A stretch of 37,186 nucleotides of DNA. Source: Capnocytophaga periodontitidis (GTDB lineage Bacteria > Bacteroidota > Bacteroidia > Flavobacteriales > Flavobacteriaceae). Where the stretch lies: positions 1 through 37,186 of the forward strand of contig NZ_JAEFDB010000017.1 of assembly GCF_016126015.1 (NCBI RefSeq). Reading direction: 5' to 3'. This document shows positions 213 through 37,186 of this stretch, in pieces. The translations under genes were made by a program, and so were the position numbers. Each line of letters starts with the position of its first letter. Within the stretch, counting starts at the first letter, position 1. The notes below the pieces were generated by a model, which made no database searches, was not told where the DNA came from, and worked only from the letters and a program-made list of their open reading frames with translations.

Positions 213-267
213 CTTTAAATGTTTTCACAACGGAATAATCCTTATTGTGAATTGCTTTCAAATTCTG
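183..267 (-). ncRNA. tracrRNA, type II-C (predicted)
   Basis: The minus strand contains an anti-repeat (245-264) that is complementary over 20 consecutive nt to positions 2-21 of the CRISPR repeat as read on the minus strand. After it come a short nexus-like stem (AAGGATTATTCC), an A-rich linker and a terminator hairpin with a T run. This is the usual tracrRNA order. A promoter of the form TTTG-N20-TACCTTTG lies just upstream (302-271), which puts the 5' end near 264-267 and gives an RNA of about 80-90 nt. It would pair with pre-crRNA, allow RNase III processing and load Cas9. Exact ends are inferred. Confidence 0.85.
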
Positions 268-270
268 CGA

Positions 271-302
271 CAAAGGTAAGTGTAATATTTTTTATAAGCA
301 AA
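271..302 (-). promoter_or_regulatory. tracrRNA promoter (Bacteroidetes type)
   Basis: The minus strand reads TTTG (299-302), a 20-nt spacer, then TACCTTTG (271-278). This matches the Bacteroidetes -33/-7 consensus. It is divergent from the cas9 promoter, whose -33 box starts 15 bp away. Confidence 0.75.
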
Positions 303-317
303 TTTTTCTTAATATTT

Positions 318-347
318 TTTGTTTTTATTTCTTTTTTATTATCTTTG
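318..347 (+). promoter_or_regulatory. cas9 operon promoter (Bacteroidetes type)
   Basis: TTTG (318-321), an 18-nt spacer, then TATCTTTG (340-347), 22 bp before the cas9 ATG. This fits a short leader and supports the start at 369. Confidence 0.7.
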
Positions 348-368
348 CCTCACCAAAATATAAAAAGA

Positions 369-3300
369 ATGAAACGTATATTAGGCTTAGATTTGGGCTC
401 AAACTCTATCGGTTGGGCTCTTGTACAACAAGATTTTGAAAACAAACAAGGAAAAATTATTGCTACTGGTAGTAGGATTATTCCTATAGATCAGGGTATA
501 TTAGGTGACTTTGAGAGGGGAAATACAGTTTCTCAAACTGCCGAAAGAACTACTTATCGCAGTACACGTCGTCTGAGAGAACGGCATTTACTTCGCCGTG
601 AGCGACTTCATAGAGTACTTCACATATTAGGTTTTTTACCTCCTCACTATGATGCTCAAATAGACTTTACCAAAAGATATGGTAAATTTATAGATAATGC
701 TGAACCCAAAATAGCTTATAACAATGGGAATTTTATCTTTATGAATAGTTTCAATGAGATGATTGAGGATTTCAAAAAATACCAACCTCAGTTATTTTAC
801 AAGAAATCTAATGGCGAAGAGAGTAAAATCCCTTATGATTGGACAATTTATTACCTTCGCAAAAAAGCTCTTTCACAAAAAATTACCCAGCAAGAATTAG
901 CTTGGCTTATACTTCATTTCAATCAAAAAAGAGGGTACTATCAGTTGCGTGGCGAAGAAGAAACAGAAAACCCTAACAAGGAAGTTGCTTTTCACTCCTT
1001 AAAAGTTGTAGATGTAGAGGCTGAAGCCCCTAATAAAAAAGGAGAGATTTGGTATACAATCCGTTTAGAAAATGGTTGGATATACCGTCGCACGAGTAAA
1101 AATCCATTGGACGACTGGAAGGGAAAAAGACGTGATTTCATTGTTACTACCGACCTTAATGACGATGGGACAATTAAATTAGACAAAGAAGGGAAAGAAA
1201 AACGTTCCTTCAGAGCCCCTGATGAAAATGATTGGAATTTACTCAAAAAGAAAACAGAGCACGATATTGATTTTTCTGGAAAAACTGTAGGCGCTTATAT
1301 CTACGACCATTTGTTGCAAAACCCCAATCAGAAAATTAAAGGAAAATTAGTTCGTACTATTGAAAGGAAGTACTATAAAGACGAGCTAAAGGCTATTTTG
1401 GCTAAACAAATAGCTCTTCAACCAGAATTGTTCACTGAAACCCTATTGGCAGACTGTATAAGAGAATTATACCGAAAAAACGAGACACAACAACAAAATC
1501 TACTATCAAAAGATTTCCTTCATCTGTTTGTAGAAGATATCATTTTCTACCAACGCCCATTGCGTAGCAAAAAATCTACTATTGCCAATTGTACCTTAGA
1601 AAAGCGTTCGTATATAGATAAGGAAACTAATGAGCGCAAAGACACTCCTTTAAAAGTATGTGCCAAATCTAATCCTTACTACCAAGAGTTTAGAGTGTTG
1701 CAATGGCTACAAAACTTGAGAATTTACGAAATAGAAACCGACCGTGAGGTAACTGCTGAGTTTATCGAAACAGCCGAAGACTATGAGGCTCTCTTCAACT
1801 TCTTGATGTCTCAAAAAGAAATAGATAATGAAGGTTTACTGAAATACTTTTTGTTTGCAAAAAATCCTCAAATTAAAGACAAAGTAGCTAAAAACGAGCT
1901 TAAAAAATGGCTCACTACTTATCGCTGGAACTATGTGTATGATGTGGCAGATAATTCTTCCAAAAAATACCCTATGAATGAAACAGGCTATGACCTTCAG
2001 CGGTACTTGCAGAAAGTAGAAGGACTCCCTGCCAACTTTCTAACCTTTGATACAACGTATCAATTGTGGCATTTGTTATATTCGGTGAAGGACAAAGTTG
2101 AATTTGAGAAAGCATTAAAGAGATTTGCTAAAAAGAAGCAATTAGACGAAACATCTTTCGTAGAAAGTTTCAAAAACTTCAAACCCTATCCTAATGAATA
2201 TGGTAGTTTCTCCGAAAAAGCAATTAAAAAGTTACTTCCTCTGATGCGTTTTGGCAATCATTGGGACTTTAATCGCATTGATGTATCTACTCAAAAACGT
2301 ATAGACGACCTCATCAATGGAGTGGCGAATGAGGATATCCGTACCATCATTAGAGAAAAAGCAGAGAAGTATCAGCTCAATAGTGAGACCTGCTTTCAAG
2401 GCTTACCGCTTTGGTTGGCACAGTATGTAGTCTATAACCGTCACGCCGAAGCTACCGATATAGAAAAATGGACTTCAGTAAATGATTTAGAAGCATATTT
2501 AGAAGATTTCAAGCAACATTCACTGAGAAATCCTATAGTAGAGCAAGTAGTTACCGAAACTTTACGCGTAGTAAGAGATATTTGGCAACAATACGGCGGG
2601 GGACAAGCGAATTTCTTTGATGAAATACATATAGAACTGGGTAGAGAACTCAAAAAAACAGCCGAAGAAAGAAAACAACTTTCCAATAAAAATCAGGAAA
2701 ATGAAAATACCAACCTACGCATTAAGAAATTACTTGCCGAATTAAAAGAAGATACAAGCATACAGAACGTACGCCCGTATTCGCCTGTACAGCAAGAACT
2801 GCTTAAAATCTATGAAGAAGGTGTGTTTAGTGCTACCGATGAAGTAGAGGAAGATATTCAGAAAATCCGCAAAAAAGCTGAACCTACCACCCCTGAGATA
2901 CAACGCTACAAACTGTGGTTGGAGCAAAAATACAAATCGCCTTATACGGGAGAGGTGATTTCACTTACAAAACTATTTACTGAGGAGTATGAAATAGAAC
3001 ATATTATTCCGCAAAGCCGTTATTATGATGATAGTTTATCCAATAAGGTAATATGTGAATCGGCTGTAAATAAGCTAAAAACAAATCAATTAGGATTGGA
3101 ATTTATCCAGAATCACCACGGTGAGAAGGTGCGCATAACAGGTAATAAAGAAGTTACTATCTTCACAGAAGAACAATACAAAGAGTTTGTGAAGAAACAT
3201 TACGCTAACAATTCAGCTAAACAGCAAAAGCTTCTTTTGAATGAGATACCTGAAAAAATGGTCGCTCGCCAGCTGAATGACACTCGTTACATCAGTAAGT

Positions 3301-4739
3301 ATGTTTCAGAAATACTTTCTAAAATAGTGCGTTCAGATGAAAAAGATGAGGGGGTAAACTCTAAAAATATAATACCTTGTACAGGTAAAATTACTACTGC
3401 CCTCAAACAAGATTGGGGACTTAATGATGTGTGGAATGAGCTTATACTTCCTCGTTTTGAGCGAATGAACCAGCTTACCCAAACACAGCTATTTACCTCA
3501 TATAACGACAGACTTCAAAAAAATCTCCCTACTGTTCCAATAGAATACAGCCAAGGTTTTCAAAAGAAACGCATAGACCACCGTCATCACGCTATGGACG
3601 CCTTAGTGATTGCTTGTGCTACGAGAGAGCACATCAATTATATGAATAACCAACACGCATTGGATAAGAATAAGGATAAAGAAGAAAAACAACAATCTCG
3701 CATAGACCTTCGCACTATCCTCTGTGAGAAAAAGAATAATAACTGGCAGTTCAAGAAACCTTGGAGTACTTTCACTCAAGAAGCCAAAGAAGCCCTCGAA
3801 CATATAGTAGTAAGTTTTAAACAAAACCTAAGAGTGATTAATAAGGCTACCAACTATTATGAAAAATGGGAAGAGAAAAATGGTGTACTTGTAAAAAAGA
3901 AAATAAAACAAGAAGGGACTAATTGGGCTATCAGAAAGCCTTTACACAAAGAAACTGTTTCAGGTAAAATTGTATTGGATAGAAAAATAGGTAAAGATAA
4001 AATACTTACAGCTACCCGAAAAGCAGTAGATATAACCTTTACAGAAAAGATTATCAGTAGTATTACCGATACGGGCATTCAGAAAATATTGCTCAACTAT
4101 CTGAAATATAAAGGAAGTCCAGAAGTAGCTTTTTCAGCAGAAGGATTAGAAGAACTCAACAAAAATATTGCCCAATACAACGATGGCAAGAAACATCAGC
4201 CCATTTATAAAGTGCGTATTTTTGAGGAAGGAAGTAAATTTCCTCTTGGAGAAAAGAGTGCTAAAGCTACTAAATATGTAGAAGCAGCCAAAGGAACGAA
4301 CCTCTTTTTTGGAGTATATCAAGGCAAAGGAAAACGCACTTATGCAACAATCCCTCTCAACGAAGTAATTGAACGACAAAAACAAGGACTTCCTTCTGTT
4401 CCCGAGCGCAATGAAAAAGGAGAACCATTGTTGTTTAGCCTTTCGCCTAACGATTTGGTATATGTGCCTATGGAAGGAGAAATAGCAGAGACAATAGACT
4501 TCAATAATCTCAGCAAAGAACAGAAAGAAAGGATTTACAATGTAAATGATTTTTCTTCTACCACTTGTTATTTTACACCTAATAGAGTTGCAAAAGCTAT
4601 TTGTCCTAAAGAGATTGATAAAAAGGGGAAAGATTCTGGTTCTTTTGATACTAAAACAGCGAGTATAGAAGGGGTGCAAATAAAAGAAGTCTGTATCAAA
4701 CTAAAAGTAGATCGCTTAGGAAACATCATCAAAGCATAG
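369..4739 (+). CDS. cas9: Type II-C CRISPR RNA-guided endonuclease Cas9
   Basis: 1,456-residue Cas9, the crRNA:tracrRNA-guided DNA nuclease. Seen: RuvC-I with LGLDLGSNSIGWAL (Asp8); an Arg-rich bridge helix at about 64-85; RuvC-II with HIELGRE (Glu756); an HNH domain with EHIIPQS (His878) and an Asn at 901 in the expected NK position; RuvC-III with HRHHAMDA (His1074, Asp1077). All catalytic residues are present, so an active nuclease is expected. The C-terminal 350 or so residues would be the PAM-interacting region. The frame stays open upstream to 219, but that extension runs antisense through the tracrRNA and through the promoter at 318-347, and homology begins at MKRILGLD, so I choose 369. 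cas1 follows after 29 bp. The length places it among the large Bacteroidetes II-C Cas9 proteins; there is no csn2 or cas4. Confidence 0.97.
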   Translation: MKRILGLDLGSNSIGWALVQQDFENKQGKIIATGSRIIPIDQGILGDFERGNTVSQTAERTTYRSTRRLRERHLLRRERLHRVLHILGFLPPHYDAQIDFTKRYGKFIDNAEPKIAYNNGNFIFMNSFNEMIEDFKKYQPQLFYKKSNGEESKIPYDWTIYYLRKKALSQKITQQELAWLILHFNQKRGYYQLRGEEETENPNKEVAFHSLKVVDVEAEAPNKKGEIWYTIRLENGWIYRRTSKNPLDDWKGKRRDFIVTTDLNDDGTIKLDKEGKEKRSFRAPDENDWNLLKKKTEHDIDFSGKTVGAYIYDHLLQNPNQKIKGKLVRTIERKYYKDELKAILAKQIALQPELFTETLLADCIRELYRKNETQQQNLLSKDFLHLFVEDIIFYQRPLRSKKSTIANCTLEKRSYIDKETNERKDTPLKVCAKSNPYYQEFRVLQWLQNLRIYEIETDREVTAEFIETAEDYEALFNFLMSQKEIDNEGLLKYFLFAKNPQIKDKVAKNELKKWLTTYRWNYVYDVADNSSKKYPMNETGYDLQRYLQKVEGLPANFLTFDTTYQLWHLLYSVKDKVEFEKALKRFAKKKQLDETSFVESFKNFKPYPNEYGSFSEKAIKKLLPLMRFGNHWDFNRIDVSTQKRIDDLINGVANEDIRTIIREKAEKYQLNSETCFQGLPLWLAQYVVYNRHAEATDIEKWTSVNDLEAYLEDFKQHSLRNPIVEQVVTETLRVVRDIWQQYGGGQANFFDEIHIELGRELKKTAEERKQLSNKNQENENTNLRIKKLLAELKEDTSIQNVRPYSPVQQELLKIYEEGVFSATDEVEEDIQKIRKKAEPTTPEIQRYKLWLEQKYKSPYTGEVISLTKLFTEEYEIEHIIPQSRYYDDSLSNKVICESAVNKLKTNQLGLEFIQNHHGEKVRITGNKEVTIFTEEQYKEFVKKHYANNSAKQQKLLLNEIPEKMVARQLNDTRYISKYVSEILSKIVRSDEKDEGVNSKNIIPCTGKITTALKQDWGLNDVWNELILPRFERMNQLTQTQLFTSYNDRLQKNLPTVPIEYSQGFQKKRIDHRHHAMDALVIACATREHINYMNNQHALDKNKDKEEKQQSRIDLRTILCEKKNNNWQFKKPWSTFTQEAKEALEHIVVSFKQNLRVINKATNYYEKWEEKNGVLVKKKIKQEGTNWAIRKPLHKETVSGKIVLDRKIGKDKILTATRKAVDITFTEKIISSITDTGIQKILLNYLKYKGSPEVAFSAEGLEELNKNIAQYNDGKKHQPIYKVRIFEEGSKFPLGEKSAKATKYVEAAKGTNLFFGVYQGKGKRTYATIPLNEVIERQKQGLPSVPERNEKGEPLLFSLSPNDLVYVPMEGEIAETIDFNNLSKEQKERIYNVNDFSSTTCYFTPNRVAKAICPKEIDKKGKDSGSFDTKTASIEGVQIKEVCIKLKVDRLGNIIKA

Positions 4740-4768: not shown

Positions 4769-5997
<1,229 letters not shown>

Positions 5998-6013
5998 GAA
6001 GAATAGGAAAGAG

Positions 6014-6061
6014 AAAACCTCCTCTTTAGCCTTTGTTTATAAGGTAAAAGAGGAGGTTTTT
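6014..6061. terminator. Bidirectional terminator between cas2 and the CRISPR array
   Basis: A perfect 14-bp stem (6014-6027 with 6047-6060) ends in five T on the plus strand. On the minus strand it is followed by TTTTCTCTTT. It can stop the cas operon from one side and the pre-crRNA from the other. Confidence 0.85.
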
Positions 6062-6114
6062 CAGTACTGTTTTTCAGTAAAACTGATTGATACTAAAACC
6101 TTTAAAAGATTGAG

Positions 6115-6860
6115 GTTGTTATCAATCACAAAACTACAAAATTTGAAAGCAATTCACAACAAGAAAGGAACTGATTATGATCAAATCATCGTTGTTATCA
6201 ATCACAAAACTACAAAATTTGAAAGCAATTCACAACAGTTCGCTCATAGAAGTTTCGGACTTTGACGTTGTTATCAATCACAAAACTACAAAATTTGAAA
6301 GCAATTCACAACAACTGCTTTGTTGTTGCGTCTTTTGTAACGGTTGTTATCAATCACAAAACTACAAAATTTGAAAGCAATTCACAACCAAAAAGCATCA
6401 CTCAATAAATTTCCTTTAGTTGTTATCAATCACAAAACTACAAAATTTGAAAGCAATTCACAACTAAACTATCACGAATAATATTACCATTGTCGTTGTT
6501 ATCAATCACAAAACTACAAAATTTGAAAGCAATTCACAACCAGAAAACTGGTCTCCAAATATGTTCCAAAGTTGTTATCAATCACAAAACTACAAAATTT
6601 GAAAGCAATTCACAACTTCCGTTCAAAGCACGTTCATACCAAGCTAGTTGTTATCAATCGCAAAACTACAAAATTTGAAAGCAATTCACAACTATAAATT
6701 AGCAAATTTGAGAATTAGCAAATTTGGAAATTACCTAAGTTGTTATCAATCAAATAGCTACAAAGTTTAAAAGCAATTCACAACGGCTTGTTTCCAGTCC
6801 TTACTGAATGTTTTGTTGTTATCAATCGCAAAACTACAAAATTTGAAAGCAATTCACAAC
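6115..6860 (-). CRISPR. Type II-C CRISPR array, 10 repeats, 9 spacers
   Basis: Repeats of 46 nt lie at 6115, 6191, 6267, 6343, 6419, 6495, 6571, 6647, 6739 and 6815 (start positions). R1-R7 are identical. R8 and R10 carry one A-to-G change at plus position 14. R9 is a variant with several changes. Eight spacers are exactly 30 nt; S8 (6693-6738) is 46 nt, AT-rich and repeat-like. The anti-repeat of the tracrRNA requires crRNA to be read on the minus strand, starting each repeat with GTTGTGAATTGCTTTC. A leader promoter lies at 6900-6934, and transcription would run toward the terminator at 6014-6061. In minus orientation each normal repeat contains TTG at positions 2-4 and TAGTTTTG at 25-32, a full Bacteroidetes promoter. 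Confidence 0.97.
6693..6738. repeat. 46-nt AT-rich pseudo-spacer, copy 1 (S8)
   Basis: Lies between R8 and variant R9. It contains two AATTAGCAAATT cores 16 bp apart. All 46 bases are identical to 8155-8200. Its length differs from the 30-nt spacers, so it is probably not a normal acquired spacer. Confidence 0.85.
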
Positions 6861-6899
6861 ATAAATGTTTAATTTATCAAATAGAGCAACAATAAAGCG

Positions 6900-6934
6900 C
6901 AAAGATACAAAAAAAATATTTTATAAGTAACAAA
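6900..6934 (-). promoter_or_regulatory. CRISPR leader promoter
   Basis: The minus strand reads TTTG (6931-6934), a 23-nt spacer, then TATCTTTG (6900-6907). Transcription would start near 6893, cross about 33 nt of AT-rich leader, and enter repeat R10. The 23-nt spacing is at the long end for this promoter class. Confidence 0.6.
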
Positions 6935-6938
6935 GCAT

Positions 6939-6970
6939 AAAAAAGGTTGCCCAGACTTCTGAGCAACCTC
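6939..6970 (-). terminator. Terminator of the 145-residue membrane protein gene
   Basis: The minus strand forms a stem GGTTGC/GCAACC (6963-6968 with 6945-6950), extended inside by CAGA/TCTG, then six T. It separates the gene at 6992-7429 from the CRISPR leader. Confidence 0.75.
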
Positions 6971-6991
6971 TTTCTATATTCTATTAGATGA

Positions 6992-7429
6992 TTAACTTCC
7001 TAAGGTATACCAATGTACGCCTATCAAATATTGAAACTCCGCTGAAAACGACAACCGTACGGCAACTACCAGCAGAAAAGCCAACACGGATAAACCTATC
7101 TTTTGGTACGTCTTGCTCACAGTAGCAATGCACATTCCCAATAGGAAAGCCACCGCAGTGCTAGCAATATAACCGAGTGCCAAGCTCGTATTCGCATCTT
7201 GCAGGCTGCCAGCGATGAGCATTAGCACTGCAAAAGGACTCACCACACGCAAGAAACTACCCCACTTCTGTTGAGGTCTCTCTCTTACAAAGAGATAACT
7301 CATAATCACTACCCCTGTTAAGTACAGCGGTAGGGTTACCAAATGATCTCCATAGGCTATTGAACTTATAAACAAGTAAATTGCAATAGCTGAGATAAGC
7401 TCTAAAAAGATTTGCACTGATTTTTTCAT
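6992..7429 (-). CDS. Small integral membrane protein, function unknown
   Basis: 145 residues with about four hydrophobic segments (near 8-25, 32-48, 64-110 as a pair, and 113-130) and a short soluble C-terminus; no signal peptidase site. I do not recognise the family. The gene has its own promoter (TTG-N20-TAACTTTG at 7485-7455) and its own terminator (6939-6970), so it is a free-standing unit and not part of the CRISPR locus. It is intact and lies in the interval between the two repeat clusters, with a broken sulfatase upstream. No evidence ties it to CRISPR function beyond position. Confidence 0.75.
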   Translation of the reverse strand: MKKSVQIFLELISAIAIYLFISSIAYGDHLVTLPLYLTGVVIMSYLFVRERPQQKWGSFLRVVSPFAVLMLIAGSLQDANTSLALGYIASTAVAFLLGMCIATVSKTYQKIGLSVLAFLLVVAVRLSFSAEFQYLIGVHWYTLGS

Positions 7430-8108: not shown

Positions 8109-8154
8109 GTTGTTATCAATCACAAAACTACAAAATTTGAAAGCAATTCACAAC

Positions 8155-8200
8155 TATAAATTAGCAAATTTGAGAATTAGCAAATTTGGAAATTACCTAA
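8155..8200. repeat. 46-nt AT-rich pseudo-spacer, copy 2
   Basis: Identical over 46 bases to S8 of the main array (6693-6738). It lies between a perfect repeat and a variant repeat. Confidence 0.85.
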
Positions 8201-8246
8201 GTTGTTATCAATCACATAGCTACAAAGTTTGGAAGCAATTCACAAC

Positions 8247-8292
8247 TATAAATTAGCAAATTTGAGAATTAGCCAATTTGAAAATTACCTAA
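8247..8292. repeat. 46-nt AT-rich pseudo-spacer, copy 3
   Basis: Differs from copies 1 and 2 at two positions (AGCCAATTTGAAAAT against AGCAAATTTGGAAAT). It lies between variant repeats B and C. Confidence 0.85.
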
Positions 8293-8409
8293 GTTGTTAT
8301 CAACCAAATAGCTACAAAGTTTGAAAGCAATTTACAAAATGTATAAGTAAATAATCTAAACAATAGCGTTAAGCAAATCGAGCGAATCCTCTCCTATTGA
8401 TGATTTTTA

Positions 8410-29011: not shown

Positions 29012-32000
29012 ATGAAAAAGTTTCTAATAGCAATTGTATTATTTGTGGTAGGTTTATCAGTATCAGCACAAGAATGTTTTGATGTCCAACTAACTCCTAC
29101 CGCTGGGCAGTGTAAGTCGGATGCGAAGTTACGTGTAACAGCACAGCCTAAATCACCTATGCCTGCAGGTTGTACTTCTTCAGGTAACTACTCTGTTGAA
29201 CTGACAAAACCTTCAGGAAGCCCAAGTCTACAAGCTCTTTCGGGTACTCCAGCCTCCTATGAGTTTGCCGATTTGCAACCAGGAGTTTATACGGTTACAG
29301 TCTATGATAACAACGCAGTAGGGGTAAAACCAATTGTAAGAACTGTTACCATTACTACTACCTATAAAACTATGAATATCACAGCTGAAGGTATAGCACC
29401 TACTTGTGCGGGAGTGATTGATGGACAAATACAGTTCAAAATTCCTTCTGGTGGTACAGGTCCTTTTGAAGTAACAGTTACTGATGAAAGTGGAAATATA
29501 TTAATTCCTATGCAAACTTTCAATCGTCCTTCACCTGCTACGAAATTTATTACCATACAAGGAGGCCCTGGTAAAGAATTGCGTACAGGTAATGTAGTAT
29601 TAGTAGTGCACGACAAAACAAATATAAGTAATGTTTGTGGAGAAACACAATACGTCCCTGTAGAAATAAAAGAACCTGAGGATCCTTCTTGTTTTGAAAT
29701 TCAAATGTATCAGACCCGTTTTTCTATGGGGGCTAATTGTAAGTTCAAACTCTATTTTATAATTAGAAAAAAAGATGGGGGGTATGTATTTGCTGAGCCT
29801 TATCGAGCAGCAGCTAACAATTATTTTAAAGGAAAAGCAAAAGTAGAGATTCTCAATAGAGTTCAACCTGTTGCTACACCTCGTTTTGTAGATGAAAACT
29901 TCTATGTAGATGATTATATCTTTCAAAAAGGTGACCAAATACGCATAACCGTAAATGGAGGTAAAAATACAATTGTTCAAACTGTTGAATTAGACAATGG
30001 TATTGATATACCCCAATGTCCTTCTGACCCCCGCTATCAAATAGGATTGTATCACAATGATGCTTCTACTTATCAGTGTGGTACTGCTTCCTATACATTG
30101 TATATGTATTTTCAATATGCAGATCGTCAAGTTAAAGATGTAATCAATGGAGGTACAAGGAGAATACAAGTCAAATATAATAATGAACAAGTAAAGCCTA
30201 CATTTATTGTAGAAAAAGAAACGTCTCCAGGGGTTTGGTCTACCATTACACCTGCTTGGCATACCTTTGCAGCTGATAACAATAGTGCCAGAGTAAATCT
30301 TCCCTCTTCTGGTAAATACCGTATCCGTTACCAACACCCTAATGGTTGCTCTGAACTCTGTAGGACAGTGGAATTAACGCCTCCTGCAAGCATTGACCCT
30401 GCTCAGGCTTTTAGAAATATAAGGTATGCCTATGGTGTTTATGAAAATACAGGGGCGTTCTATAGATATATTTACCGTCGTAACAAAGAAGTAATCTTTC
30501 CAATTACAGTGAAATTGACTCCTACCGATGGTCGTTCTGCAATTTCTTTCCAAACACGCTTGCCTTTTGAAACCGCTACTTATACTAAAACTATAGTTTT
30601 CCCTTTGGTACAGACTTGGAATGATGAACATTATTATGGTTGGGGCGATTTGCCAGCAGGTACTTACTCCCTTTCTATCACTGATGCTTGCGGCAATATA
30701 GCTACCACAACTGTTCAAATCGCTTTACTGCGCAAAATTACTGATTCCATTAAAGTAGAAACAACTTGTAATAGCGGAAAAGTGACTTATGATTTAGGTG
30801 AAATGTATGGCTCAACTCCTAAAGTGTACTTGACTCGTGAAACTTTTCCTGGAAATTATGTAGATATCGATACAAAAACCCCAAAAGGATATAGTCAGCA
30901 GCCTGTAGGAAGTTTTTCTAACTTATTTCCAGGTAATTACGCCTTGAAATATAGGAATTTATATTACCAAGCTACAGACAATAGCCCAGTCCATTGGCAG
31001 GTAGAGACTGCTTTACCCACTGCGGCGGGTAAATACCCTCATAGTCAAATCTATTACCATCCATTTACAGTAAAACCTCAACCCTCTTTAGATCCTGTGC
31101 TCTCGGCTTCTGCTTGTAGTGCTTCAAGCGGTTCTGGTATCATTTCTGTAGATCTAACAGGACAGCAAATTTCTTATCCACTTACCTTTACACTATTTAA
31201 AAAACCTAATCTCACCACTCCAGTGAGAGCGATCACTTTCCAAGCTACTGATCCTAACAACACTTATGCTGTCTTTAATAATTTGGACGATGGTAGTTAT
31301 ATGGTGCGTACTACTCATGCCTGTCAGTCAGTGCAAAACGATATTAAGGTGAAAATCAATACTGCTTTTACTCCTAATGTGGTGATAACAGCTACAGCCA
31401 ATTGTCGCGGAGATCAAGCTAAATTATACTTTAGTCTATCTGATTTCTTATTCGATATTCGTTGGTATCAACTCAATGCAGCAGGACAACGTACTACCAG
31501 CACTCCTCTTGGTACACAGCGTACTTTTTCTCGTGCTATCTCCGAAACTACTACTTTTGAGGTAGAGTACCAACTCAAAAGTAATATAGGCTGTGGTGGT
31601 TCTACTACCCCTATGACCAAAACAGTAACAGTTTCTCTGCCTAAGGATACAACACCCCCAGTAATTTCAGGCTGCCCTTCTGATATTACGGTAATAGCCG
31701 ATGCTGGCAAATGTAGTAAAAAAGTATCGTGGATTGAACCTACTGCTACCGATACTTGTTTCGATACAACTCGCACTACACGTTCTCATACTCCTAATAC
31801 CGAATTTGGTATAGGTACACATACCGTAGTGTATACTTTCTCCGATATTTATGGTAATACCAGCACTTGTACTTTCAAAGTAATTGTAAAATCGCGTGCT
31901 TTGGAAATGACTGTAAATGCTCGCTATACCAATAACGCAGGGGTAGCAGTAACACAACTCAATCCTAATGATGAGTTTATATACGAAATTTCTTATCAAA

Positions 32001-35000
32001 ATACAGGTCAGAATGCTATTAGTACAGCTTCTCTCACCGTGAAATTGCCCGCAAATGCAAGAGTAATCACCAATGGTAATCCTATTCTAACAGGAGCTAC
32101 CCAAGGAGGAATTGCTCCAGGACAAAGCTATGACCCTATCACTAAAACCTACCTATTTAATATACCTGGTACTACTATTCCTTTGGGTGGAGCTACTAAG
32201 GTAATCAAAATCCCAATGAAACATATAGGAGGATGTGCCGAAGCGTCTAAACCTTGTGGCAATTACTTCACTATGAGCTACCAAATGAATTATGGTAGTA
32301 TAACTCCTGGTTGTAATATAGCACCTCAAGCTAAAGAAGGAACTCACTCTATGACTATTAATACAGCAGGTTGTTCTCGCCAAGAAGTGTTCTGTGTAGG
32401 TAGTACACTCAACCTCACTGCAGAACAAGGTTTTGATACCTATAAATGGTTTGTTAATGGCACGCTCCAACCTACTTATACTACCTATCAATATACAGGT
32501 GCAGGAACTGCTGGCACTTACAGAGTAGAAAAAACTAAAATCTGCGATGGCGTACAAATCACAAGTGAAGAGGTAATCAACTTCCAAACAGCAACTACGG
32601 CTACAGATCCTATTCGATCTCAAGCAAACAATGTTGGAGTAACCTGTGCCGATAATAATACTTGGACAAGCCACTTTTATTTGTGTGATGGCAAAAGCAA
32701 AACTATTAGTGTGAACTATGTGAACACTACTTTCCAATGGCAACAATGGAATGGCTCTTGTACCGAATCCTCTTCTGATTGTAGAAATTCAGACGACCAA
32801 TGTTGGACACCTTTGCACTCCAATAGTATTTTCCAACTCAATACCTCAGGTAAATACCGCTTAAAAGTACAAAGTGGTAGCTGTGCTAATTTCTTCTATT
32901 TCGAAGCCTTTACAGCTGGCTTAGGAGGTACTGTAACTGATGTAATTCATCAAACTGATTTTACACAAGGTTCCGTGAAAATATCAATGAATACTAATGG
33001 AATCAATTATAATATACAGATATTTGATGCAAGTGGTACAAGAGTCAAAAATATCACTACTTCTAATAGTGAAACTCTTGTAGATGGACTTTCACAAGGT
33101 ACTTATACCGTAAAAGTAACCTCTCCTCAAGTAGTAGGTTGTGAACTCAACGACTCTTTTGAGATTAAAAAACTCAATAAGATGACAATGACGGCTACTT
33201 TCAAAGGTTTCAAACAGTGTAATACAGCAACCTTTGAGCTTAAAGCCGAAGGGGGCGAAGCACCTTATCATTTCTTCTTATGGTCGATAGATGGCGTACA
33301 ACAGCATGCTAATGAGTCTGCAGCTTTGAATTCCACCCCTATTGCTACTCAAAGCGTGAGTGAAAGTTCTAAAACCATAGATGTGCCTAATATCACTCAA
33401 GTAGGGGAATATGTATTCTTAGTAGGTGATGCACGTAACGGAGCATTTGCTCTTTCTAATAAGGTGACAGTTACACCTCCTAATCCACATAACTTTACTG
33501 TATCGGCAACTACCGAAATTGCTTGTGCAACCCAATCTAATACCGGAATCATCAATACTATATTTGGTGTTCCTAATCAAAAACGCAAAGTAACCCTTTA
33601 TACACTCGATGCTAATGGTAACCGCTTGCCTAATCCACGTACTAGTGTAGGTGGCCTGTTCACTGGCCTAACTGCCGGTACTTACGAAATATTCATCGAA
33701 GCAAAAGTAGGAGTTACTACTTGTACTTATAGCAAAAAACCTGTAGTAATTCTTCCTACTCAAAAACCATTACAAGGCTTTGCTACCATACTAGCCGATA
33801 AGTCTTGTGATACAAACAACCCTAAACAGTACAAAGTAGCTGTAGCTAATATTTCAGGCGGAACGACTCCTTATCGTTATAGTTTTGATGGAGGAGCTAC
33901 TTTTGGTTCAACTGCTATAGGTTATATGGGAGCTTCAGGTAATATATTTGTTGAAGATAGCAAAGGATGTCGTATCTCATTGCCCATCAAGGTGGCTCCT
34001 GATGTAATTCCTTCAGTAGGAATAAGCTCTATTACCTATCGTTGTGATAGTGGCAATGGGGTTGTAACCCTCACTGTTTCAGCTACTGCTTCACAAACTT
34101 ACGAATATAGCATTGATGGTGAAACTCCTCAATCGATGAGTGGAACCACCGTAGTGCGTGAGCTTACACCTGGGGTACACTCACTCACAATATACTACAA
34201 AACTGTAGTGACCGATACTACTACCAATGTGCTCTTTAGAGAAGATTTTGGAACAGGAAACAATGGTTGTCTCTCTGATGCTACCACAGCGTTCACTTGT
34301 GCAGCTACGGGAACCCTTTCCGATGGTAACTATATCCTCACTAAAGCAGTAACCCTCCAATCTGGTTGGGTAACAACTCCTCCTGCCGATGCTTCAGGTG
34401 GTCGCTATATGGCGATAGCAGGTAGCGGAGGCAATGAAATGGTATATGAAAAACGTTTGAACGGAATAGAACCTAACAAACCACTTTTTGTGAGTTTAGA
34501 TGCAATGAGCTTGATTCCTACAGCAGGAATTGCACCTCGCTTTAATATAGAAGTTCGTAAAAGTGATGGTTCGCTACTCCTTAGCAGATATGCAGGTACG
34601 GCTACTAATGGAGCAGGGTGGACAAGCCTAAAAGCAGATTTCTTAGCTACCGAAATAACTGGATTTAGCGATAATCAACTTATTATAAGAATCGTAAATA
34701 TAGCAGTTAATACCTATAACAATTTAGGCAACGACTATGTAATCGATAATATAACAGTATTCCAACAACCTAAAATCTGTAACAATAGCATCACTCAGCT
34801 CATCAATATAGAAGCTAATAAGCAAATGCGTGTTGAAAAATACGGAGCTGAGAAAAATGTAAGTTGTTATGGTAACCACGATGGTGCTGTAGCTATAAGG
34901 GTCGTAAATCCTGTTTCTAATCAAGTGAAATACACTACCGATCCTTATCAAACTACTTGGACAACCACTACACTCAACGCCCAAGGGGTCTTTACAATAA

Positions 35001-37186
35001 CGGGGCTCTCAGCTACTCAAAACGGAGTACTTACCGTACAAGATGCTACTCAAAATACTTGTGTGATATCTCTTGCAGGTGGTTATAAAATAGGTGAACC
35101 TGGAGTGATTACACCTACTGTAATAGTAACCGATAAAGCTACTTGTTTCAATAATCAAAAAGCAAAAGTGAGAGTTTCGGCTACAGGGGGTACTCCTAAC
35201 TATCGTTTCCAAGTAGGACTCATAACAGGTACCCTTAGTGCGATGTCAGCTCCTTCTATTAACCCGATAGAGTTCTCTAACCTATCACCTGGCACTTATA
35301 GTTTGGTAGTAACCGATAATAACAATTGTACTACTCAAACTACTTTCGAGATTGTAGCTCCTGATACTATTTCGGCTACTGCCGAACCGGCTTCATATTG
35401 CTATCAATTTAGTGATGCCAAATATGTAGTAATTAATATCTTGAGTGGTAATGGCAACTACAAAGTACAAAAACAAGGTAGTACAAGCATTTATGCGTTC
35501 TCTTCAGGTAGCTTCACTTACCCTGAAGAAGTAGCTTCAGGTACTCACACCTTTATGATTACCGATGGTTATGGTTGTACAACAAGTGTAACTACTAAAG
35601 TGTTTGAGGCACTTAGCTTGCAAGTATCGCCTACCTATCAACAGTATGCAAATTGTAAAGGTAATTTAGTAACCTATATGCTTACAGCAAAAGGTGGAGA
35701 CCCAGCCGCTATCAAAGAATTTAGAGTGAGCACCGATAGTGGAGCTACTTATAGTACGATAGGTTCGGCAACAAGCCAAGTCGAATATGGTGCCAATGCT
35801 ACTACTCATACCGATTTCAAATTCCAAGTGCGTTACTATCCTGATGGTAGCGAGTGTAAAGCTGAACAGTATATAACCTTGCGTAGTGATCCTCCGCGTT
35901 TGCTTGTAGGTACACTCACCGTTACAGCAGCTACTTGTGGTCGTGCTAATGGAGCTCTATTGCTCTCCCCGTCCGATTATCACGTTGGAACCTCTTCACA
36001 CACAGTACAAGTGTTAGATGCTTCTAATGCAGTACAAACAATGACGGCTTTAGCTCCAGGAGTTTATACCTTAAAAATCACTGACGATAGAGGTTGTGAG
36101 TTTACACAAAACTTTACTGTAAATGGAGTGCCTCAACTTACCGCTACAGTCACAGTTACTAAACAAATTAGCTGTAACTCCCCTACTGCCGATTTAGCAG
36201 TGAAATTGATTACAGGAGGTAAAGCTCCTTATACAGTTAAGGTAGAAAATACAACTCATAACACTACGCAAAGTGCTACTCACAATAGTCAGGCCGCTAA
36301 TACTACACTGCCATTTACAGGATTGAACTATGGTAATTACAATATTACTATTGTCGATGCTAATGGTTGTGAAACTCACTTGCAAACTGTAGTGAATGCA
36401 AATACAACCTCTATTACGGTACGTTATGATACACCTACAAATTGTAGTACTACCCATAATGCTTACGTAAAAGCAGCAAGTACAGCCTCATTCACTACTA
36501 CTGCTAATGCTTACTTTGCTGTATATCGCACAGGTATCCAAAATCCAATAGCTCCTTGGATAACACCTAAGGTTGTTCCTAATAGTACAGGAGGTAGTGA
36601 TACTTGGTACAAAGGTAATCCGGTAACAGGAGGTGTGGAAGCTAATATACCTAACCTTACTTCAGGGGTACGTTATACCTTTGTAGTATACAATGCCGAT
36701 ACAGGTTGCCGTTATACACATGAGGCTACTATACCAGTGCCTACACTTTCTACCTTAGCGGTAACTTTATCTCAAACGCCTACAACCTCTTGTGCTGAAG
36801 GTAATGATGGTAAAGTAAATTACACCCTTAGCGGTTGGCAAGCAGGTAGCACTATTAGCTGGAAAATATTCAATAATAGTACCCATCAGCAAGTAGATAC
36901 AGGTACGGCGGCAGCAGTAACTACACCACAAACAGCCGGAAGTGCTTTAGCAGCAGGTCATTATTATATTGTATTTACCGAAAGCCCAAGCAATTGTACG
37001 CAAGTACTTCACTTCGAAGTAAAAAAATCTCATTTGCAAATGCAGATATCTGCAACAGCTACCCAAAAAGCTTCTTGTAATACTCAGGGTGAAGCGTGGT
37101 TGAATATCACAGGAGGTACAGCTACTTATACTTATGGATATGTAGCTTCAGGAACAGCCTACACATCATCTGTAATGACTCGTACG
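29012..37186 (+). CDS. Giant SprB-like secreted surface adhesin (partial, C-terminus beyond window)
   Basis: An open frame of 2,725 codons runs to the window edge. I read it in frame at the start, middle and end without finding a stop. It has a signal peptide (MKKFLIAIVLFVVGLSVSAQ). The body is made of Ig-like modules, each typically opening with a Cys and closing with a SprB-repeat-like phrase: NLSPGTYSLVVTDNNNC, LAPGVYTLKITDDRGC, LNYGNYNITIVDANGC. A HYR-like module (CPSDITV..., GTHTVVYTFSDIYGN) lies near residues 880-960. A DUF11-like module lies at about 965-1075. A FREDFGTG jelly-roll-like domain ends in DYVIDNITVFQQ, at about 1740-1915. In flavobacteria such proteins leave by the type IX system and act as gliding or surface adhesins, usually ending in a type B sorting domain, which would lie downstream. 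Confidence 0.88.
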   Translation, partial: MKKFLIAIVLFVVGLSVSAQECFDVQLTPTAGQCKSDAKLRVTAQPKSPMPAGCTSSGNYSVELTKPSGSPSLQALSGTPASYEFADLQPGVYTVTVYDNNAVGVKPIVRTVTITTTYKTMNITAEGIAPTCAGVIDGQIQFKIPSGGTGPFEVTVTDESGNILIPMQTFNRPSPATKFITIQGGPGKELRTGNVVLVVHDKTNISNVCGETQYVPVEIKEPEDPSCFEIQMYQTRFSMGANCKFKLYFIIRKKDGGYVFAEPYRAAANNYFKGKAKVEILNRVQPVATPRFVDENFYVDDYIFQKGDQIRITVNGGKNTIVQTVELDNGIDIPQCPSDPRYQIGLYHNDASTYQCGTASYTLYMYFQYADRQVKDVINGGTRRIQVKYNNEQVKPTFIVEKETSPGVWSTITPAWHTFAADNNSARVNLPSSGKYRIRYQHPNGCSELCRTVELTPPASIDPAQAFRNIRYAYGVYENTGAFYRYIYRRNKEVIFPITVKLTPTDGRSAISFQTRLPFETATYTKTIVFPLVQTWNDEHYYGWGDLPAGTYSLSITDACGNIATTTVQIALLRKITDSIKVETTCNSGKVTYDLGEMYGSTPKVYLTRETFPGNYVDIDTKTPKGYSQQPVGSFSNLFPGNYALKYRNLYYQATDNSPVHWQVETALPTAAGKYPHSQIYYHPFTVKPQPSLDPVLSASACSASSGSGIISVDLTGQQISYPLTFTLFKKPNLTTPVRAITFQATDPNNTYAVFNNLDDGSYMVRTTHACQSVQNDIKVKINTAFTPNVVITATANCRGDQAKLYFSLSDFLFDIRWYQLNAAGQRTTSTPLGTQRTFSRAISETTTFEVEYQLKSNIGCGGSTTPMTKTVTVSLPKDTTPPVISGCPSDITVIADAGKCSKKVSWIEPTATDTCFDTTRTTRSHTPNTEFGIGTHTVVYTFSDIYGNTSTCTFKVIVKSRALEMTVNARYTNNAGVAVTQLNPNDEFIYEISYQNTGQNAISTASLTVKLPANARVITNGNPILTGATQGGIAPGQSYDPITKTYLFNIPGTTIPLGGATKVIKIPMKHIGGCAEASKPCGNYFTMSYQMNYGSITPGCNIAPQAKEGTHSMTINTAGCSRQEVFCVGSTLNLTAEQGFDTYKWFVNGTLQPTYTTYQYTGAGTAGTYRVEKTKICDGVQITSEEVINFQTATTATDPIRSQANNVGVTCADNNTWTSHFYLCDGKSKTISVNYVNTTFQWQQWNGSCTESSSDCRNSDDQCWTPLHSNSIFQLNTSGKYRLKVQSGSCANFFYFEAFTAGLGGTVTDVIHQTDFTQGSVKISMNTNGINYNIQIFDASGTRVKNITTSNSETLVDGLSQGTYTVKVTSPQVVGCELNDSFEIKKLNKMTMTATFKGFKQCNTATFELKAEGGEAPYHFFLWSIDGVQQHANESAALNSTPIATQSVSESSKTIDVPNITQVGEYVFLVGDARNGAFALSNKVTVTPPNPHNFTVSATTEIACATQSNTGIINTIFGVPNQKRKVTLYTLDANGNRLPNPRTSVGGLFTGLTAGTYEIFIEAKVGVTTCTYSKKPVVILPTQKPLQGFATILADKSCDTNNPKQYKVAVANISGGTTPYRYSFDGGATFGSTAIGYMGASGNIFVEDSKGCRISLPIKVAPDVIPSVGISSITYRCDSGNGVVTLTVSATASQTYEYSIDGETPQSMSGTTVVRELTPGVHSLTIYYKTVVTDTTTNVLFREDFGTGNNGCLSDATTAFTCAATGTLSDGNYILTKAVTLQSGWVTTPPADASGGRYMAIAGSGGNEMVYEKRLNGIEPNKPLFVSLDAMSLIPTAGIAPRFNIEVRKSDGSLLLSRYAGTATNGAGWTSLKADFLATEITGFSDNQLIIRIVNIAVNTYNNLGNDYVIDNITVFQQPKICNNSITQLINIEANKQMRVEKYGAEKNVSCYGNHDGAVAIRVVNPVSNQVKYTTDPYQTTWTTTTLNAQGVFTITGLSATQNGVLTVQDATQNTCVISLAGGYKIGEPGVITPTVIVTDKATCFNNQKAKVRVSATGGTPNYRFQVGLITGTLSAMSAPSINPIEFSNLSPGTYSLVVTDNNNCTTQTTFEIVAPDTISATAEPASYCYQFSDAKYVVINILSGNGNYKVQKQGSTSIYAFSSGSFTYPEEVASGTHTFMITDGYGCTTSVTTKVFEALSLQVSPTYQQYANCKGNLVTYMLTAKGGDPAAIKEFRVSTDSGATYSTIGSATSQVEYGANATTHTDFKFQVRYYPDGSECKAEQYITLRSDPPRLLVGTLTVTAATCGRANGALLLSPSDYHVGTSSHTVQVLDASNAVQTMTALAPGVYTLKITDDRGCEFTQNFTVNGVPQLTATVTVTKQISCNSPTADLAVKLITGGKAPYTVKVENTTHNTTQSATHNSQAANTTLPFTGLNYGNYNITIVDANGCETHLQTVVNANTTSITVRYDTPTNCSTTHNAYVKAASTASFTTTANAYFAVYRTGIQNPIAPWITPKVVPNSTGGSDTWYKGNPVTGGVEANIPNLTSGVRYTFVVYNADTGCRYTHEATIPVPTLSTLAVTLSQTPTTSCAEGNDGKVNYTLSGWQAGSTISWKIFNNSTHQQVDTGTAAAVTTPQTAGSALAAGHYYIVFTESPSNCTQVLHFEVKKSHLQMQISATATQKASCNTQGEAWLNITGGTATYTYGYVASGTAYTSSVMTRT

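Follow-up and report, generated by a model that had tools for sequence, protein, structure and literature searches.

A candidate Bacteroidota-type promoter in the repeats of a type II-C CRISPR array of Capnocytophaga periodontitidis

The stretch of DNA that we analysed, referred to here as the window, comprises 37,186 nt of the genome of Capnocytophaga periodontitidis and contains a CRISPR-Cas locus of type II-C. It encodes cas9 (219–4739, plus strand, with Cas9 domains, when the open reading frame is read from ATG 219), cas1 (4769–5659, plus strand) and cas2 (5656–5997, plus strand), and neither csn2 nor cas4 was found among the genes scanned. The array (6115–6860, crRNA sense on the minus strand) consists of ten repeats of 46 nt, which are separated by eight spacers of 30 nt and one spacer of 46 nt. 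The only further gene scanned (6992–7429) gave a match to DUF1275 below the Pfam cut-off, and no family reached the gathering score in an Rfam scan of the whole window. A copied fragment of the array lies 1.2 kb from it (8109–8338). This fragment holds a canonical repeat as well as two diverged copies without the TAnnTTTG box discussed below, has near-identical 46-nt "spacers" with a period of 92 nt, and is 97% and 92% similar to the array piece 6647–6784. The window ends within an open reading frame (29012–37186) that has at least 2725 codons. At one of the other loci that we surveyed (L103), cas9 lies in an open frame of 3021 codons (measured between stops), roughly double what is usual.

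A tracrRNA gene with predicted ends at 183 and 266 is located on the minus strand, with an anti-repeat at 245–267 and a terminator hairpin at about 184–215. For an RNA from 268 to 183 (ends chosen by us) pairing with repeat positions 1–25 was predicted, with −34.5 kcal/mol, together with a 3′ hairpin followed by a T-run; the predicted pairing would stop at repeat position 23 if transcription starts at about 266. Predicted pairing of the anti-repeat with the 5′ part of the repeat is as in a type II-C tracrRNA, and since the anti-repeat sits in the RNA that pairs with repeat positions 1–25, the minus strand is the crRNA strand. Ahead of this gene we found the promoter TTG-N20-TACCTTTG (271–301, minus strand; TTTG at 302–299, box TACCTTTG at 278–271). 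Read from ATG 219, the cas9 reading frame overlaps the tracrRNA gene. ATG 369 is more likely to be the true start: it lies 21 nt downstream of a TATCTTTG box at 340–347, and the corresponding methionine (residue 51) is invariant across 15 Cas9 proteins. A cas9 start at ATG 369 behind TATCTTTG would imply divergent promoters for tracrRNA and cas9.

In crRNA sense, the canonical repeat starts with GTTG (TTG at positions 2–4), followed after 20 nt by TAGTTTTG at positions 25–32. The earlier note had described this arrangement and had pointed out that the tracrRNA promoter has the same spacing; both observations hold, with the exact TTG-N20-TAGTTTTG pair in nine of ten repeats and N20 in both places. 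The candidate −7 box of the leader-proximal repeat is at 6129–6136 and its candidate −33 element TTG at 6157–6159, both on the minus strand and 20 nt apart, as in the other canonical repeats. The remaining exact TAGTTTTG boxes, also on the minus strand, have their lowest plus strand base at 6205, 6281, 6357, 6433, 6509, 6585, 6661 and 6829. In the diverged tenth repeat (6739–6784, minus strand), which has the 46-nt spacer on its low-coordinate side, the TAnnTTTG box is lost. At the sequence level the array thus looks like one with repeat-borne promoters, with elements in crRNA sense ahead of each spacer that are lost in one of ten repeats. The consensus for Bacteroidota promoters was given as TAnnTTTG at −7 and TTG or TTTG at −33 (PMC7366714; this and the other publications are cited for the parts consulted), and the repeat pair, which also has the spacing preferred by the genome itself (see below), would be a promoter for the housekeeping sigma factor of this phylum. 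In Flavobacterium psychrophilum the TAnnTTTG box is numbered −12 to −5 (PMC9723704). According to this numbering the predicted start is near repeat position 37 (plus strand 6124 in the leader-proximal repeat) and not at positions 38–41, as had been suggested, and would leave about 10 nt of repeat ahead of a 30-nt spacer. A scan of 5900–7050 for E. coli-type sigma-70 promoters gave five sites versus 4.4 expected. When the 3′ part of the window repeat was shuffled, TAnnTTTG arose in 8.6% of trials and the pair at a gap of 19–20 nt in 1.8%; since the pair is also obtained from shuffles, the window repeat on its own is only suggestive.

In order to get an idea of the likely promoters of this genome, we compared intergenic and coding copies of the box in the window and in 400 kb of the same genome. 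TAnnTTTG occurred 2.13 times per kb and strand in intergenic sequence versus 0.79 times inside genes. TTG was found 19 nt ahead of it in 18% of the intergenic copies and 20 nt ahead in another 18%, versus 2–3% for the coding copies. Taken together, 71 of 191 intergenic and 34 of 617 coding copies had TTG at one of these two gaps (ratio 6.7, p 2e-25), and the ratio for the best one-mismatch form of the box was 2.8. TAnnTTTG was also the top word 18–21 nt behind TTG. Because the intergenic boxes show TTG at a gap of 19–20 nt, the repeat carries the genome's own likely promoter form and spacing. At the other loci the TTG signal was weaker (6–9% per gap from 18 to 21 nt versus 1–3% in coding sequence), and at the loci with box-bearing repeats TAnnTTTG was eighth in the word test, after words that possibly stem from repeated elements. 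We also considered TAnnTTTA as a general promoter in those genomes whose repeats contain it. This was not supported, as TTG preceded 32 of 273 intergenic and 65 of 728 coding copies at a gap of 18–21 nt; at these loci neither TAnnTTTA nor TAnnTTTG was among the ten top words.

We then collected repeats across the phylum. A RuvC_III domain identified Cas9 loci in 63 of 395 genomes sampled over Bacteroidota, and in a sample of the genus 11 of 20 genomes matched the Cas9 of the window. Within the class, a pattern search of 395 genomes added loci from 51 (L132–L161, selected by pattern alone), and named genomes added 80 loci, the best 80 of 567. Our script retrieved 135 arrays with 118 distinct repeats, 92 long and 26 short; distinct repeats may differ by a single base, and all were trimmed to a common start for the box counts. 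These counts include the truncated repeat of L236, the 57-nt consensus of L156, L166, the consensus of which was given one extra leading base, and L178, which was kept in the wrong orientation and counts as a miss. L166 and L178 were excluded from the anti-repeat, polarity, worn-first-repeat, flank-box, box-loss and erosion, internal-repeat, terminator and short-repeat analyses. The probable duplicates L149 and L151–L155 were retained for the box counts and for the spacing, anti-repeat, polarity, worn-first-repeat and flank-box analyses, and were excluded from the box-loss and erosion, internal-repeat, terminator and short-repeat analyses. Removal of redundancy on the 3′ half left a non-redundant set of 51 repeats.

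The exact box was present in the 3′ part of 41 of the 92 distinct long repeats (3.75 expected from shuffles) and absent from 51, and its reverse complement was present in one. In the non-redundant set 22 of 51 repeats contained it (2.03 expected), more than any other word of the form XXnnXXXX. The full pair was found in 36 of 92 long repeats (1.45 expected) and in 17 of 51 non-redundant ones (0.76 expected), and 35 of 41 exact boxes sit 18–21 nt from the TTG at positions 2–4. A variant, TAnnTTTA, which is little favoured by intergenic sequence, is present in 12 of 51 non-redundant repeats. The published repeat of Prevotella intermedia strain ATCC-25611F (PMC5608340), when reversed, reads TTG-N19-TATCTTTG; the pair is not remarked on in the consulted part of that paper.

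Such an excess could also arise in AT-rich repeats by chance or through shared ancestry, with no function of the box. The 1.8% of shuffles of the window repeat that yield the pair speak for this, and the long repeats look homologous because their 5′ part is common to them: in the 48 of 51 repeats used for this comparison, the first 17 bases are nearly invariant (except for position 8) and the end is conserved (ACAAC-like), with a poorly conserved middle. When all 28 templates with six of eight letters fixed were counted, GTAnnTTT and TAnCTTnG occurred in 23 of 51 repeats each, thus as commonly as TAnnTTTG (22 of 51), so common descent accounts for part of the box signal. However, the excess extends across many genera at a fixed spacing, and the rest of the 3′ part is poorly conserved except for its end. 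We therefore consider it most improbable that chance or descent alone explains the pair.

The position of the box relative to the tracrRNA pairing region was determined from the anti-repeats. An anti-repeat-like match was obtained for 77 of 95 loci; for 22 it was on the other strand, and several of these are full-length array remnants (the window included). We took the anti-repeats of 54 of the 95 loci as genuine. At these 54 loci with a clear anti-repeat, the pairing ended at a median repeat position of 24 (range 14–34). Relative to the end of the pairing, the box started at −3 to +15 nt, and at −3 to 0 in 29 of 52 cases. In 31 of the 54 loci TAnnTTTG was also found 9–18 nt ahead of the anti-repeat in tracrRNA sense.

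Decay of CRISPR arrays affects the end opposite to spacer entry. In the window array, mismatches number 1, 5, 1 and 0 in the four repeats at the crRNA 5′ end, and the four repeats at the opposite end are free of them. Sufficient flank was available for 64 of 87 long-repeat arrays, among them L155, whose repeats mark it as a probable duplicate of the array in the window. Of these 64, 48 had the more degenerate repeat at the crRNA 5′ end, none had the less degenerate one there, and in 16 both ends were equal. This polarity implies that new units are added at the crRNA 3′ end and that crRNA transcription runs from the old to the new end. Repeat decay and anti-repeat orientation agree that transcription would head toward the end at which spacers enter, and the same direction was reported for other II-C systems (PMC8092290, PMC12080349). 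Since the leader is the downstream end, an ordinary leader promoter would be unable to make these crRNAs, and we discarded this candidate on the basis of the array polarity (48 versus 0 of 64). For the same reason a single start site in the leader, which the earlier note had named as the alternative, does not fit.

The hairpins that flank the array agree with this direction. In the leader, a hairpin with T-tracts on both strands (6014–6060, minus strand; −24.0 kcal/mol in crRNA sense, −25.1 kcal/mol on the other strand) is likely to act as terminator for transcripts leaving the array as well as for the cas mRNA. Terminator-like leader hairpins of −12 kcal/mol or lower were found in crRNA sense in 41 of the 62 arrays with enough flank, versus 2.5 expected from shuffles, and in cas sense in 26 of 62; the trailers had them in 7 of 62 versus 3.5 expected. 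A palindrome between cas2 and the array has been noted for Riemerella (PMC5006608) and Prevotella (PMC5608340). In the window trailer, a hairpin resembling an intrinsic terminator (6939–6974, minus strand) is located upstream of the array, before the gene at 6992–7429. Leader and trailer hairpins support the direction of transcription, not the number of promoters.

A single promoter in the trailer could transcribe the whole array toward cas2, with all crRNA ends generated by processing. The window trailer does contain TATCTTTG (6900–6907, minus strand), which follows the trailer hairpin and precedes the first repeat by 39 nt. Among 65 arrays with enough flank (L153 and L155 included as probable second copies), 20 had a box in the 250-nt trailer in crRNA sense and only 10 in antisense; for the leader the number was 7 on either strand. 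Nevertheless, the full TTG-N18-21 pair was present in the repeat of 21 of 65 arrays versus the trailer of 4 of 65, and the trailer box of the window has no TTG at 18–21 nt. The exact box alone was in the repeat of 25 of 65 arrays; 30 of 65 had it in neither repeat nor 250-nt trailer, and many of these have one-letter variants. A trailer promoter leaves the conserved pair in the repeat unexplained, although both promoters could act together. We regard it as improbable that all crRNAs derive from a trailer promoter.

The first repeat is of special interest: its handle is used by no spacer, and transcription of the first spacer would be all that it is needed for. We analysed 46 worn first repeats, with 1–20 mismatches and a box of five or six letters. 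Mismatches affected 5 of 276 cells in the box and 210 of 644 in the tracrRNA handle. The two free positions of the box had 7 mismatches in 92 (p 0.013 versus the six fixed positions), and the tail behind the box was as well kept as the box itself (5 of 453). TTG was lost in 63 of 138 cells; therefore worn first repeats, if they fire, would do so without a −33 element. This pattern lends slight support to a promoter role of the box, since loss from the outside in would look similar. For the extra repeat of II-C arrays, a concentration of mutations in the first 15 nt had already been reported, along with a possible need to keep its promoter (PMC12080349). Erosion of the first repeats had its limit between positions 2 and 33 in 38 cases, of which 33 were at position 22 or below (p 0.003 versus a uniform distribution), and the box was apparently lost in 7 of 42 box-bearing arrays. 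These limits also weakly favour retention of the box, as short remnants are harder to find and loss of the outer half looks alike. For mutations inside arrays there was no clear difference between the box (4 events in 468 positions) and the handle (14 in 1326), so sparing of the box was not apparent there.

The worn first repeats also bear on another conceivable function of the box, namely as a landmark for Cas1-Cas2, by which it would be an integration ruler and no promoter. Its distance from the leader-side end of the repeat is fairly steady, with 14–17 nt in 68 of the 87 long repeats that have five or six of the six box letters, and the ends of the long repeats are conserved, probably for integration. 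Such a landmark would predict neither a sigma consensus on one strand only (41 versus 1 of 92) nor the TTG spacing of the genome, and the box is kept in worn first repeats, distant from the end at which integration takes place. We consider a role as landmark very unlikely.

Taken together, it is very probable that the canonical repeats act as promoters, each for the spacer that comes after it in crRNA sense. The pair, its spacing, its excess in relatives, its adjacency to the tracrRNA pairing region, the decay polarity and the leader hairpin are visible in the sequence. As to the statement that every canonical repeat carries a complete Bacteroidetes promoter, its core is supported by the pair, the phylum-wide excess and the genome's own spacing, and the start position assigned to it needs to be revised. 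With about 10 nt of repeat predicted ahead of the spacer, the further suggestion that the crRNA 5′ end requires no processing is more than the sequence can support. In our reading, the housekeeping sigma factor of Bacteroidota would direct RNA polymerase to TTG (positions 2–4) and TAGTTTTG (positions 25–32), with a start near repeat position 37, and the resulting RNA would comprise the last 10 nt or so of the repeat, then the spacer, then the next repeat. The tracrRNA is predicted to pair with positions 1 to about 23–25 of this next repeat, and RNase III would then generate the 3′ end of the crRNA together with Cas9. Transcripts that read through would end at the hairpin between array and cas2. 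Promoters in the repeats would suit an array that gains spacers at the cas2 side, the downstream end, from which a leader promoter could not produce RNA in crRNA sense.

The short repeats may give a hint on the length of the long ones. Among the 36-nt repeats, 14 distinct ones (some of them nearly identical) end in a half box, [TG]AnnTT, at positions 31–36, and all 14 have TTG 19 nt ahead of it. Of the remaining 12, 11 contain a full or nearly full inner box starting at positions 21–26, and L192 belongs to neither kind. Both kinds occur among Bacteroidota II-C arrays, for example in L054, L081 and L087. The repeat of Campylobacter jejuni is likewise 36 nt long. In 8 of 92 long repeats the longer 3′ end completes [TG]AnnTTTG in about the same register; most long repeats that contain the exact box have it at a more internal position, adjoining the tracrRNA handle (the 35 of 41 with a gap of 18–21 nt from TTG). 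It is conceivable, though we hold it for rather doubtful, that the long Bacteroidota II-C repeats (about 45–50 nt versus 36 nt) owe their length to the eight-base box of the host sigma factor: the 3′ end of a 36-nt repeat would fit a six-base box, not the eight-base TAnnTTTG. The extra length is not strictly needed, because 11 of the 12 remaining 36-nt repeats hold a full or nearly full inner box. Should this reading be true, repeat length would be set by transcription rather than by the Cas proteins, which would provide a testable reason for the unusual length of these repeats. We also considered that the spacer supplies the TG missing from the terminal half box. This was not supported, as TG starts 33 of 625 spacers versus 6.7% expected (p 0.17). 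In the 13 other short-repeat arrays, whose repeats have an end other than [TG]AnnTT, spacers starting with TG are in excess (47 of 380 versus 7.5%, p 0.0008).

Promoters in repeats are known from other II-C systems. Campylobacter jejuni (Dugar 2013, PMC3656092) shares with the window locus, as we read it, a small number of cas genes, a promoter for each crRNA in the upstream repeat and a single RNase III cut per crRNA. Its repeat ends in an extended −10 box, GGTAAAAT, and transcription starts at spacer position 5, whereas the 46-nt repeat of the window has an inner Bacteroidota −7 box and a predicted start about 10 nt ahead of the spacer. Repeat-borne promoters of Neisseria meningitidis are related in PMC5006608. 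Within the phylum, the II-C array of Flavobacterium columnare (Hoikkala 2021, PMC8092290) is also transcribed toward the leader and a repeat-encoded promoter was proposed, but the one element noted was TTG, located 33 bp before the spacer, and eight reads covered the array; the parts of that account consulted mention no −7 box. For the Fp2Cas9 locus of F. psychrophilum (PMC10309648), the array was reported to be transcribed on either side of an insertion element, and a promoter per repeat was likewise proposed; again TTG alone was named, and TAnnTTTG was assigned to the cas9 promoter. CRISPR1 of Riemerella anatipestifer (PMC5006608) resembles the window locus in its 47-nt repeat, its cas1, cas2 and cas9 genes and an anti-repeat, TGAAAGCAATTCACAA, upstream of cas9. 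In contrast to our reading, its authors found no promoter in the repeat and, with BDGP applied to the leaders, placed the promoters there. A study of more than 650 II-C systems (Feussner 2025, PMC12080349) likewise described first repeats mutated mostly in the first 15 nt and terminators upstream of arrays, but its main text contains no word beginning with "Bacteroid-", and no sigma-specific box was found in the parts consulted. TAnnTTTG was not named for a II-C repeat in the literature that we searched, a search with most subscription journals outside its reach. As far as these sources go, the principle of the repeat-borne II-C promoter and its proposal for Flavobacterium by means of TTG are known, and the full pair of Bacteroidota type is apparently new.

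If our reading is true, the production of crRNAs from one promoter per spacer extends to many genera that use a different promoter language. It would supply a promoter of two elements, where the Flavobacterium papers had named just one of the two, and the report that the 47-nt repeats of Riemerella contain no promoter would merit re-examination. The pair would also offer a start point for the expression of guides in Bacteroidota, and the arrays would have to be read in the direction opposite to that of the leader.
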